Assembly: GCF_036417845.1 (NCBI RefSeq)
Contig: NC_089981.1
Coordinates: forward strand, 21,162,001 to 21,226,000
DNA length: 64,000 bases
Reading direction: 5' to 3'
Source: Apteryx mantelli
Lineage: Eukaryota; Chordata; Aves; Apterygiformes; Apterygidae
The notes beneath the pieces were generated by a model, which was not told the DNA's origin, ran no database searches, and saw only the letters and a list, made by a program, of their open reading frames with translations. The position numbers and the translations under genes were made by a program. Shown in pieces: positions 26,837-33,278 of this stretch. How positions within the stretch are numbered: the first letter of the stretch is position 1; each line of letters starts with the position of its first letter.

Positions 26837-29800
26837 CTTTAAAAAGACAAAACCAAAGAGTTTCAAAAGAAGAATTAATAAAGCTCTCAAGTCCAAATCT
26901 GATCTCATGCCCACACGCAAACCAGAACAGACATTCTGAAGAAGATGCAGCACGACTGGAATAAATCAGTCCTGAAGTCAGCAAGAACATGAAAACGCAG
27001 ACCCCTGCCTTTATTGCGCATAATTCTGGGGTTACCCTTTACACCACAGACCTTTGGCATTTTCCCAACTAGGGAATTAATTCCCAAAAGGGGTGTGATG
27101 AGCTACAGAGCTAGAACGCAGAAGCATTTTCTCAACAGAAGCAGCATTGCAAACACCAGTTTGACCTGTGAAAGCTCCTGAGATGATTCCTCAAGCTCTC
27201 GTATGGTTACATAGCACCAACACAGCCTTCGATTCATACTTTTCACCTCAAAATTAACTGGAAATTTCCACTTACACCTGTACGCTTCAGGAGAATTTCC
27301 TTCAGAACTAGTGATCTGGATTTCTAGTGACAATCTCATCTACTTATCACAGAACTAGTTGCAAAGTCCCAGAGAAACCTCTGCCAACCCAAAAGAACCC
27401 TGAACAAGCTCTGTCCTTTTTCTCATTCGCTTTTTGGTTTTAAAGCTTGTGTACAGCAAACTCTTGAAACATACTTCAGAAGATGGATTCCCCAATTACC
27501 AACAAGTTCCATTTTGCTACTGTGTCACTTTTAATTAAAATCGAAGACTCTGGTATGGAAAGTCACAATGAACAATTGCTACTAACCCCGCTCTGATTAT
27601 ACAAGCAGTCTGCTGCCTCTGGAAGTCTCAGGAAAACCAACACCAAGCCATTTCCCTTTCTCTTAAAAATATAAATACATCTGCTATGCCTTTATTTTCC
27701 AAAGGACAGAGTGTAGGGCGTAAATGGCATGAACAAATGATGCCTTTAACATGGAGAGGCCAATAAAGGTGACTCAAAGACACACCATACACATGTAAAT
27801 GCCAGAGTTACAACAAGGCTAGAAAAGCAATTCTTCCCATTGTCCGAGTCTAGCTACAGGATCATCCTGCAGGCATTTCATGACCCATCTACCCTCAGCT
27901 GGAAGCTAGCCAGGGTCTAAGTGTAGGCATTTAAGGTAAAAGCACCGGATCTTAGATTCTGCAGGAACCTGCAGTATGGCATTACCTCCAAGCAGATCTT
28001 TGATGTCCTGTTCTCCAGCATCCTGACACGCACTTAGATGGCGACACTGCAAGAGGATACAGTGATTCTGGTAGGGCACGGACCAATTGCAGTGGCGATT
28101 ACCTAAAAACAGCAGAGGGCAAATAAGCAGCTAAGCAAAACTGAACCCCCAAAATCCCATATGCCAAAATAAAATTTACCTTAGTAGGGCTATTAAAAGC
28201 CATACCTGACCAAAGAACACTCTTTCAAACAAAATAAGAAAATGGATTGCTACACACAGTTTAGTAAGTATGCTCTACTTCATGGCTGTGACACCAAGAA
28301 AAATTGAAGAATGAAAAAGCTGACAGCTGGAAGGCTGTCCTTAAAGGATCTTGACTCAAGCTTGGTGAAAATAATTGAAAAAGCAAAGAAATCAACAGCA
28401 GCTTCAAGTCCATCTACAGAACTCCCTACTTTTCTCCTTGGGAGAAATGCCCCCTAAAGAGGGCAATTTGCTCACACAGATAGGGACAAAGAGACAGAGC
28501 ACTACAGCTTGGATAGACTCCATCTAAATGCTTGCATTTATCTGAAATGTCTTAATGAGAAGAAAAAAGAAAGTGAGCTGAACCTTAGGTGACACCCATC
28601 TCTTCTGACGGGAGATGGCTCTTACCTCAGTGCCTGGAGTTGGGTAGAAATTCATTTCTCATCTGCTGATCGATACCATTGTCCAGGGATGCCATCACAG
28701 AAATTGTCTTTTAGTATGTCAGATCCCAACATGAGCTAAATCAGCTCATGTAAGTCATCACAGCAGGAATTCCCTTTCCTGGCATCCCTTCTAATCTGTT
28801 AATTTGTTTCAGTATGCGTCTGCACACACACAACCAAACTTTGAGGGAAGGAATAATTCCCCTCTAATCAGCACTGCTGAGATGGTATCTCAAACGCTGT
28901 GCCTGGTTTTGGGCTTCCCAGCACAACGGGGAGGGGAAGAAAAGAAAAGAAAAGAAGTTGTTGACACACTGGAGTGAGTCCAGCACAGGTAACCTAGACA
29001 GCTGTGGGGGCTGGAGAATGCGATGAACAAGAAGAGCCTGAGAGAAGTTCAGCCTGAAGAACAGAAGGCGAAGAGGAAATCCCATTGCTGTCCCCAGCCA
29101 CCTAGTGGAAGGCAAGAGAGAAGATGGAGCCCAGTTTTTGTTGGTGGTGCAAAGAGATAGTGTGAGAGGCAACAGACAAGTTGCAACACAGGAAAGTCCA
29201 GCTAAACATAAGGAAGAAAATGTTTCCACCACCAGGGCGGTCAAACACTGGACCAGGGGCCCAGAGAGGCCGGACACTCTCCATCAGGCATTGAGCAGCC
29301 TGATCTAAGTTGGTTCTACTTTGAGCAGGGACCAGAGACCTCAAAACATCCCTTCCTGCCTAAATTATGCTGTGATTCTATGCAGTATCTTATCAGCATA
29401 TAATTAATTTCTGGTACTAGGAAGTAACATGTGCTGTAAAAAGGAAACACAGGAGAAGATAACAGTGATCAGTCTGGGATGAAGCAGATGTGTGTCCAAG
29501 TGGCCACCCATCAGTGGATTACAGGGGACTCGAGTGTATGATGGTAGGAGAAATTCATTTTTGTGTTTTGTTAGAAATGTGAGAAAGGGCAGAGCACAGG
29601 CACATGTGGTACATCTGGCTATATTTAAAGCTCTTATCTACAAAGCCAATTACCTCACTGAGGATTAAAGCCATGGGGAGCTTGAAATTTTCATAATAAA
29701 ACATTTACATTACCACAGTTATTAAAAGTGCTTCTGGAAAATTTATGAACTTAGAGAGATCTCCCTACCACCAACTGCATTCTGCTTTGACAGCCCTAAA

Positions 29801-32800: not shown

Positions 32801-33278
32801 TGCAAACATCTGGTGGCATGGAGCGATCAGCCTTTAAGTTAAGTGACCTAACACCATTTGCACGCTACCAGCGCACACCAAGCGCACATGCATGCTGTTT
32901 CTTACGGAAGCTAGAAAGGCCCTGGGAAATGGTTGCTCTGGATTCAATTTAACTAAAGCTGTCAGAAATTATTTAGTGCCACAGGACTGCACACAGAAGC
33001 CATAATTGTAAATGCCTGTAAGCAACCCGAGTTAGAAAGGATAGTTGTCAGGGGAGCAGAAGGGACCTTTAAGGAAGAAAAAAACCCAGCTGGAATTTCT
33101 GCTAAAGGGCAATAGCCTCACCTGAAGCAGCTGGGCCTTTACAAGCTTGCCTGCATTGCTTTTCTGTTGTCAGCCTGTTTATTTGCACTACGCAGGCTCC
33201 TCTCTCTTTCAGGACAGAAACTCTGTTCTCACATATACAGAAGGAAATCAGCAGGAAGAACACAATGGCAGTCCACAT
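25659..33278 (-). CDS. C11orf24: C11orf24 orthologue, MANSC-containing mucin-like type I membrane protein (spliced, 3 coding exons)
   Basis: The coding sequence joins 33278-33122, 28102-27986 and 26836-25659 and predicts 483 residues (human is about 449). Seen: an N-terminal signal peptide starting MWTAIVFF, seven cysteines between residues 29 and 78 in MANSC spacing, a basic linker (about 92-151), a long Ser/Thr/Ala-rich mucin-like stalk (about 152-430), one transmembrane helix (about 436-457) and a 26-residue cytoplasmic tail ending GMYVDSEM. The tail, the juxtamembrane region and the MWTA start match human C11orf24 as I remember it. Known: the human protein cycles between Golgi and plasma membrane in Rab6-positive vesicles; its molecular function is unclear. 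The tail has Tyr-based sorting candidates (YESY, YTQV, YLIN). Both introns are phase 1 with GT-AG ends. The start ATG at 33278 has A at -3, and no ATG lies in the visible 5' UTR. Identity is firm; exon 3 rests on splice-site and cysteine logic. Confidence 0.93.
26837..27985 (-). other. C11orf24: C11orf24 intron between MANSC exon and stalk exon
   Basis: This 1.15-kb phase-1 intron runs from donor GTAATG to acceptor TTTTTAAAG. No additional exon, RNA gene or repeat was recognised in it. Confidence 0.8.
27986..28102 (-). CDS. C11orf24: C11orf24 middle coding exon: second half of MANSC domain
   Basis: This 117-base exon is flanked on the minus strand by an acceptor ending CTGTTTTTAG and a donor GGAG|GTAATG. 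It is phase 1 on both sides. In the frame dictated by the upstream exon it reads [15 protein letters not shown], continues through [10 protein letters not shown] and ends KDLLG. It supplies cysteines 4-7 of the MANSC domain (residues 57, 67, 72, 78) and an NWS glycosylation sequon. It has no stop in this frame and is too short to stand out as an open frame. Because it is symmetric, skipping it would keep the frame but break the domain. Confidence 0.85.
28450..28660 (+). repeat. Dispersed repeat, copy 2 of 2
   Basis: Partner of 23285-23500. It lies inside the 5-kb C11orf24 intron just upstream, on the plus strand, of the CR1 element. The same ordered blocks are visible, including GACACCCATCTCTTC and CAGTGCCTGGAGTTGGGTAG. 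Coding potential was not seen. Confidence 0.6.
28878..29383 (+). mobile_element. CR1 LINE 3' end
   Basis: The stretch follows the CR1 3' region: GAGATGGTATCTCAAAC, then GTTTTGGGC, GGTGCAAAGAG, CAAACACTGGACCAGG, GGCCCAGAGAGG and TTGAGCAGGGACCAGAGA, ending TGTGATTCTATG. It is 5'-truncated and sits in a C11orf24 intron, opposite to the gene. A young (AAAAG)n expansion at about 28936-28957 interrupts it. The long minus-strand open frame here is a shadow of this element. Confidence 0.85.
31637..31654. repeat. A18 homopolymer
   Basis: Eighteen A's after an A/C-rich stretch. No recognisable SINE body lies upstream, so it is not called a retroposon tail. Confidence 0.85.
32040..32175 (+). repeat. 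MIR-like SINE fragment
   Basis: GTCCCTCAGCTTCCTCCTCC, then AGCACCTTTTCTACCCTCAC, ATACTGTGAGGTTAAGATG and CACAGTGTTTGCAGATTCT follow the MIR core and 3' part in order (cctcagtttcctcatctg, cctacctcac, tgtgaggattaa, cacagtg). Confidence 0.55.
33122..33278 (-). CDS. C11orf24: C11orf24 first coding exon: signal peptide and first half of MANSC domain
   Basis: The exon encodes residues 1-52 plus one base of codon 53. The start is the ATG at 33278-33276, giving [16 protein letters not shown], a typical signal peptide with likely cleavage near residue 16-17. A frame reaching two codons further upstream exists only by using TTG, so it is not the start. After the signal peptide come cysteines at 29, 42 and 46 ([16 protein letters not shown]), the first three of the MANSC pattern. 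The donor is TTCAG|GTGAGG, a near-consensus site. Human C11orf24 also starts MWTA, which supports both the start and the gene assignment. Confidence 0.9.

Follow-up and report, generated by a model that had tools for sequence, protein, structure and literature searches.

The older name of the MANEC domain, MANSC, counted seven cysteines; both names are used here. MANEC domains have eight cysteines in four disulfides (PMC12940448, PMC9278096), and that of HAI-1 has a fold of the PAN/apple type and may mediate protein contacts (PMC12940448). Human C11orf24, not known as a carrier of this domain, is described as a type I membrane protein with a large luminal part, which cycles between the Golgi or trans-Golgi network and the plasma membrane and is found on RAB6 carriers (PMC3846831). 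The chicken gene is on chromosome 5 (PMC4721924), and it figures among genes with differential expression in chicken duodenum. Considered here is C11orf24 of Apteryx mantelli, located in a stretch of 64,000 nucleotides (nt) of contig NC_089981.1 (positions 21,162,001 to 21,226,000; “the window”). Together with MANSC1 and MANSC4 it very probably forms a small subfamily, in which a MANSC head encoded by two exons around a phase-1 intron is followed by a stalk, one transmembrane segment, and a short tail; towards humans the head was probably lost. The human C11orf24 and MANSC1 sequences used for comparison are provisional versions; for C11orf24, the primers published in PMC3846831, once decoded, give MWTALV and ASNDPR, both matching the provisional protein.

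The orthologue lies on the minus strand, where three joined coding exons (Table 1) give a single open frame of 483 amino acids. All splice sites are GT/AG (TCAG/GTGAGG, TTTTTAG/GTA, GGAG/GTAATG, and TTTAAAG/AAA). Between exons 1 and 3 there are 170 open phase 1-1 AG..GT cassettes of 60–249 nt, among which coding exon 2 has the top splice score (with approximate matrices) and alone carries the pattern C-x(6-20)-C-x4-C-x(4-8)-C. The cysteine count alone has little weight for this exon, because 28 of the 170 cassettes have at least four. In the spliced protein, cysteines are found at residues 14, 16, 29, 42, 46, 57, 67, 72, and 78, with Cys14 and Cys16 inside the apparent signal peptide (about residues 1–16, a hydrophobic start). 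The other seven are those that a first-pass annotation had obtained from the exon join, and the QCRQAC and HCNW motifs that it singled out are present as well. Both the signal peptide and the hydrophobic segment near the C-terminus were read by eye; the latter aligns with the transmembrane segment of MANSC1. There are six N-glycosylation sequons, five in the stalk and one (N58) in the MANSC domain. The Pfam family DUF5585 (PF17823) matches residues 416–483 only (E 2.1e-27, 96.7 bits, cut-off 25.6).

The stronger argument for MANSC kinship is the structure of the gene rather than any sequence score. In C11orf24, MANSC1, and MANSC4 alike, a phase-1 intron falls between C3/C4 and C5 of the family numbering, and the exon 2 that follows is of phase 1-1, with lengths of 117, 141, and 135 nt, respectively. 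The MANSC1 reading is cut at ...ACCLGKKLP-G, with exon 2 resuming as DKKCNL, and C11orf24 continues downstream of its own cut as NRHCNW; in both, the split codon encodes a glycine four residues before C5. The MANSC4 intron is also of phase 1 and in this loop, and it splits a codon two residues ahead of C5. Beyond C8, 13 residues of exon 2 remain in C11orf24, as against 15 in both MANSC1 and MANSC4. MANSC1 further resembles C11orf24 in its apparent signal peptide, Ser/Thr-rich stalk, putative transmembrane segment, and a tail of the form YT[RQ][LV]DYLINGMY, while the next exon of MANSC4 likewise encodes a Ser/Thr-rich stalk and a transmembrane segment. HAI-1 (SPINT1), LRP11, KIAA0319, and KIAA0319L also have an N-terminal MANSC head in which C2, C3, and C5–C8 align with those of C11orf24, but there the domain lies in one open frame, with single-frame matches to the domain models over positions 2–88 of 89 (HAI-1), 5–88 of 89 (LRP11), 1–85 of 85 (KIAA0319L), and 1–84 of 85 (KIAA0319). 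In addition, HAI-1, LRP11, and KIAA0319L carry PKD domains, and HAI-1 and LRP11 further modules, none of which is seen in C11orf24 by Pfam.

The C-terminus provides evidence that is independent of the head. When its last 49 residues were compared with the whole genome (1.504 Gb, 408 contigs), there were two candidates, both of which were scored: the C11orf24 gene and MANSC1, the latter with 54% identity (E 1.3e-8). A BLASTP alignment of the two C-termini has 31 of 61 positions identical (E 8e-19 when computed for this one pair), and the cytosolic tails alone give a score of 83, reached by none of 10000 shuffles (best 44). Directly ahead of DYLINGMY both have a YXX-phi sequence, YTQV in C11orf24 and YTRL in MANSC1; YXX-phi is a class of sorting signal read by AP adaptors. 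Against the provisional human MANSC1 tail, the DUF5585 profile scores 25.0 bits (E 1.2e-5), slightly below the cut-off of 25.6. Placing C11orf24 with MANSC1 suggests a single family made up of DUF5585 and the C-terminus of MANSC1. MANSC4 has a different tail, ending in KYTTVKSSL and without a DYLING motif. Human LRP11 ends in DYLINGMYL, so this type of tail motif may be wider among MANSC proteins. Among viral and prokaryotic contigs, no relatives of the C11orf24 tail were confirmed. Human MANSC1 ends in the 17 residues KRYSRLDYLINGIYVDI, tabulated in PMC7042120, where this peptide (415–431) is presented as a new GPR55 ligand that needs more than 1 uM to be active. By topology the peptide is a cytosolic tail akin to the one in C11orf24, and it is therefore doubtful that it acts as a secreted ligand.

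For the head itself, Pfam did not give the significant MANSC match that the first-pass annotation had named as a check. The isolated domain scores 16.6 bits against KIAA0319_N (PF23597; E 0.0067, cut-off 27) and 9.4 bits against MANEC (PF07502; E 1.8, cut-off 25.5), both matches spanning its cysteines, and no match to either model was found in eight shuffles that kept the cysteines in place. With the full-length protein, KIAA0319_N is the only match besides DUF5585 (E 0.29). The MANSC1 and MANSC4 domains of the same genome are both above the MANEC cut-off, with 57.5 and 34.8 bits. Pfam was therefore rejected as sole proof of a MANSC domain, both matches being below cut-off, and MANSC genes of the same genome were gathered for a profile instead. 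HAI-1, LRP11, and MANSC1 were found via MANEC, KIAA0319L and KIAA0319 via KIAA0319_N, and MANSC4 via a sub-threshold match together with its exon structure, its domain falling below the usual search threshold because it is split. The names are presumptive, assigned from the translations. Of 19 matches in the sub-threshold search, six were assigned: four to HAI-1, LRP11, and the two exons of MANSC1, one to KIAA0319, and one to MANSC4.

The main profile was built from these six sequences and human HAI-1 (PDB 2msx), leaving C11orf24 out. On it C11orf24 scores 23.0 bits, which none of 5000 cysteine-kept shuffles reached (best 22.6). When every one of the seven accepted sequences was scored on a profile of the other six, the values were 21.8 (KIAA0319L), 24.0 (MANSC1), 33.8, 37.3, 51.2, 51.4, and 53.2 (HAI-1). 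With a profile of MANSC1 and MANSC4 only, the score is 16.4 bits (0 of 5000 shuffles, best 12.6), and with one lacking MANSC4 it is 21.0 bits, reached by none of 2000 cysteine-kept shuffles (best 19.3) nor of 2000 full shuffles (best 14.1). The nearest MANSC sequence is MANSC4, with a pairwise score of 65 (0 of 5000 cysteine-kept shuffles, best 62). From these comparisons the sequence case for a MANSC domain is real but short of overwhelming. C11orf24 is grouped with MANSC1 and MANSC4 because of the profile score, the phase-1 intron with its 1-1 exon, and the transmembrane segment and tail related to those of MANSC1, and on the same grounds its domain is a MANSC domain by descent and the earlier suggestion that it is a MANSC-type membrane protein holds.

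The domain is not, however, the “complete” seven-cysteine MANSC originally described. In the family numbering, its cysteines are C2 (residue 42), C3 (46), C5 (57), C6 (67), C7 (72), and C8 (78). The canonical C4 position is a lysine, and in two alignments the C1 column has no C11orf24 cysteine, with V20 standing there in one and the chain starting later in the other. Cys29 is extra, in a column where the two alignments show no cysteine in other family members. It was considered as the canonical C1 and rejected: its surroundings, G-A-C-V-V, align with G-A-T-F-L in HAI-1 and G-A-Q-V-L in MANSC4, each of them lying 15 residues ahead of C2. Cys16 sits where the signal peptide is likely to be cleaved and could be C1 if it is retained in the mature chain. 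Compared to MANSC1, which keeps eight MANEC cysteines, C11orf24 has a shorter N-terminal part, without C4 and probably C1. The MANEC-specific disulfides link helix 2 with the N terminus, and strand 2 with strand 4 (PMC12940448). If cysteines are paired as this would imply, C1 and C4 may be missing together because the N terminus–helix 2 disulfide was lost as a unit, and the remaining C2, C3, and C5–C8 would suffice for three MANEC disulfides out of four, perhaps of C2-C6, C3-C5, and C7-C8 type, with Cys29 free or dimerising.

Several of these observations weigh against a MANSC assignment. The domain is under the gathering score for both Pfam models, and it has no canonical C4, nor C1 unless Cys16 survives signal cleavage. 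Its margin over cysteine-kept shuffles is thin (23.0 vs. 22.6 bits, and 21.0 vs. 19.3 on the profile lacking MANSC4), so cysteine spacing accounts for a large share of what the profile scores. Pairwise scores with the other MANSC genes were reached by shuffles, in 44 of 5000 cases for HAI-1, 100 for KIAA0319, 108 for MANSC1, 314 for KIAA0319L, and 2122 for LRP11. Finally, exon 2 was joined from the DNA letters alone, and a single C11orf24 gene was read. The low Pfam scores and the absence of C4 and probably C1 would also suit convergence, in which the cysteine-rich exon would encode some other small disulfide domain and the mucin-like protein would have no relation to MANSC genes. So would a PDB sequence search that gives only a weak match, to bikunin (Kunitz). 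That match (E 0.0046 for the whole chain, 4.5 for the best stretch) covers one C...CxxxC region, and a kinship with bikunin was not adopted. Convergence is nevertheless very unlikely, as it would leave unexplained that the intron loop and phase and the three-exon layout are the same as in MANSC1 and MANSC4, and that the transmembrane segment and tail have MANSC1 as the only other genomic place found.

Descent of the head within the subfamily also has to be compared with two readings in which nothing was lost towards humans. In one, the head is a gain specific to birds, with C11orf24 having received copies of both MANSC exons from either MANSC1 or MANSC4. The provisional human protein, with no MANSC match and one cysteine, and a non-mammal sampling of one genome would both allow this. 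Such a gain is improbable, given that C11orf24 and MANSC1 have the split head and the tail both in common, as whole-gene paralogues would, and that the domain is far diverged from both MANSC1 and MANSC4. A recent copy from one donor fits poorly, because the domain is nearest MANSC4 but the tail nearest MANSC1. In the other, an exon that is alternative or escaped annotation still codes for the domain in the human gene; exon 2, with 117 nt and the same phase at both ends, could be skipped without a shift of frame. This is quite improbable in turn, as the provisional human protein is also without the exon-1 half of the domain and its cysteines, and its N-terminus has no significant likeness to the exon-1 residues of the mature bird protein (equalled by 106 of 2000 shuffles). 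The human study, in the part of its text that was available, names only a signal peptide, a transmembrane segment, and a tail for the 449-residue protein (PMC3846831).

Loss of an ancestral head is thus left as the preferred reading for the human gene. Provisional human C11orf24 is like the bird protein in its start (MWTA), stalk, transmembrane segment, and tail, and fills the DUF5585 profile from end to end (E 1e-201), but no MANSC match is found in it and its single cysteine is at residue 376. A decayed MANSC remnant at the human N-terminus is not claimed; apart from the exon-1 comparison above, its likeness to bird exon-3 residues was equalled by 1952 of 2000 shuffles. Because both the split head and the tail are common to C11orf24 and MANSC1, the ancestor most probably had both, and the human line lost the head. 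With one non-mammal genome and the provisional human protein, the simplest reading by parsimony would place the loss in the line towards mammals. A published alignment of human, mouse, and zebrafish C11orf24 is described as having little similarity in the N-terminal part (PMC3846831), which neither helps nor hurts this reading. The first-pass annotation had offered loss in the human lineage and unrecognised membership of the MANSC family as alternatives. They are not exclusive and both look true: membership is borne out by profile, intron, and tail, and loss follows by parsimony.

Table 1. Features of C11orf24 in the window, and related MANSC genes elsewhere in the Apteryx mantelli genome.
Feature	Position	Strand	Description
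Coding exon 1	33278-33122	-	Signal peptide and first half of MANSC (Cys29, 42, 46); phase 1 at end
Coding exon 2	28102-27986	-	117 nt, phase 1-1; second half of MANSC (Cys57, 67, 72, 78)
Coding exon 3	26836-25659	-	Ser/Thr/Pro-rich stalk, transmembrane segment, cytosolic tail, stop codon
Stalk	25887-26753	-	About residues 120-408; Ser+Thr+Pro = 43%
Transmembrane segment	25743-25805	-	About residues 436-456, judged by eye; related to that of MANSC1
Cytosolic tail and stop codon	25659-25742	-	Residues 457-483; YTQV (YXX-phi type), then DYLINGMY
MANSC4	Locus L015; L027 5174-5308 and about 5568-6278		MANEC sub-threshold, E 1.02
MANSC1 exon 3	Locus L009		

Some other features of the locus were noted. 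The ATG exon is preceded, at about window position 33376, by an acceptor-like sequence, AAAAATAG, and therefore at least one noncoding upstream exon may exist. An island at 57250–58249, with 80–88% G+C in 500-base windows, is possibly the promoter of C11orf24 (via such an upstream exon) or of a neighbour. A CR1-like retroelement remnant of avian appearance lies at about 29100–29400, inside the intron that separates exon 1 from exon 2. Rfam found nothing at gathering score in the window.

The likeliest mode of action of the bird protein can be outlined. The head, which by homology would be of PAN/apple type, may bind a ligand outside the cell, with the mucin-like Ser/Thr-rich stalk holding head and ligand away from the membrane. 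The YTQV signal in the tail would then return the protein, making it a recycling presenter that moves between the trans-Golgi network and the cell surface. A search of PMC3846831 found no mention of a Tyr-based or YXX sorting signal. The extracellular binding role put forward in the first-pass annotation would, on this reading, be that of the head.

In a literature search, 38 papers named C11orf24 or DUF5585, and none was found that names both C11orf24 and MANSC1. In some orthologues the domain may already be marked by the automatic pipelines of UniProt, InterPro, or Ensembl. Human C11orf24 is a Golgi and cell-surface protein of no known function, filed in a Pfam family of unknown function. 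Its placement with MANSC1 and MANSC4, together with a head kept in a non-mammal, gives a testable idea of what its past role may have been (extracellular binding) and of what part has been retained (the tail). C11orf24 likely joins MANSC1 and MANSC4 as the third member of an ancient subfamily of stalked surface proteins, and in C11orf24 the mammalian line would have lost the PAN-type head while the stalk and sorting tail stayed constrained, so that the human protein would be a headless receptor. If this is true, its present function must reside in the stalk and tail.

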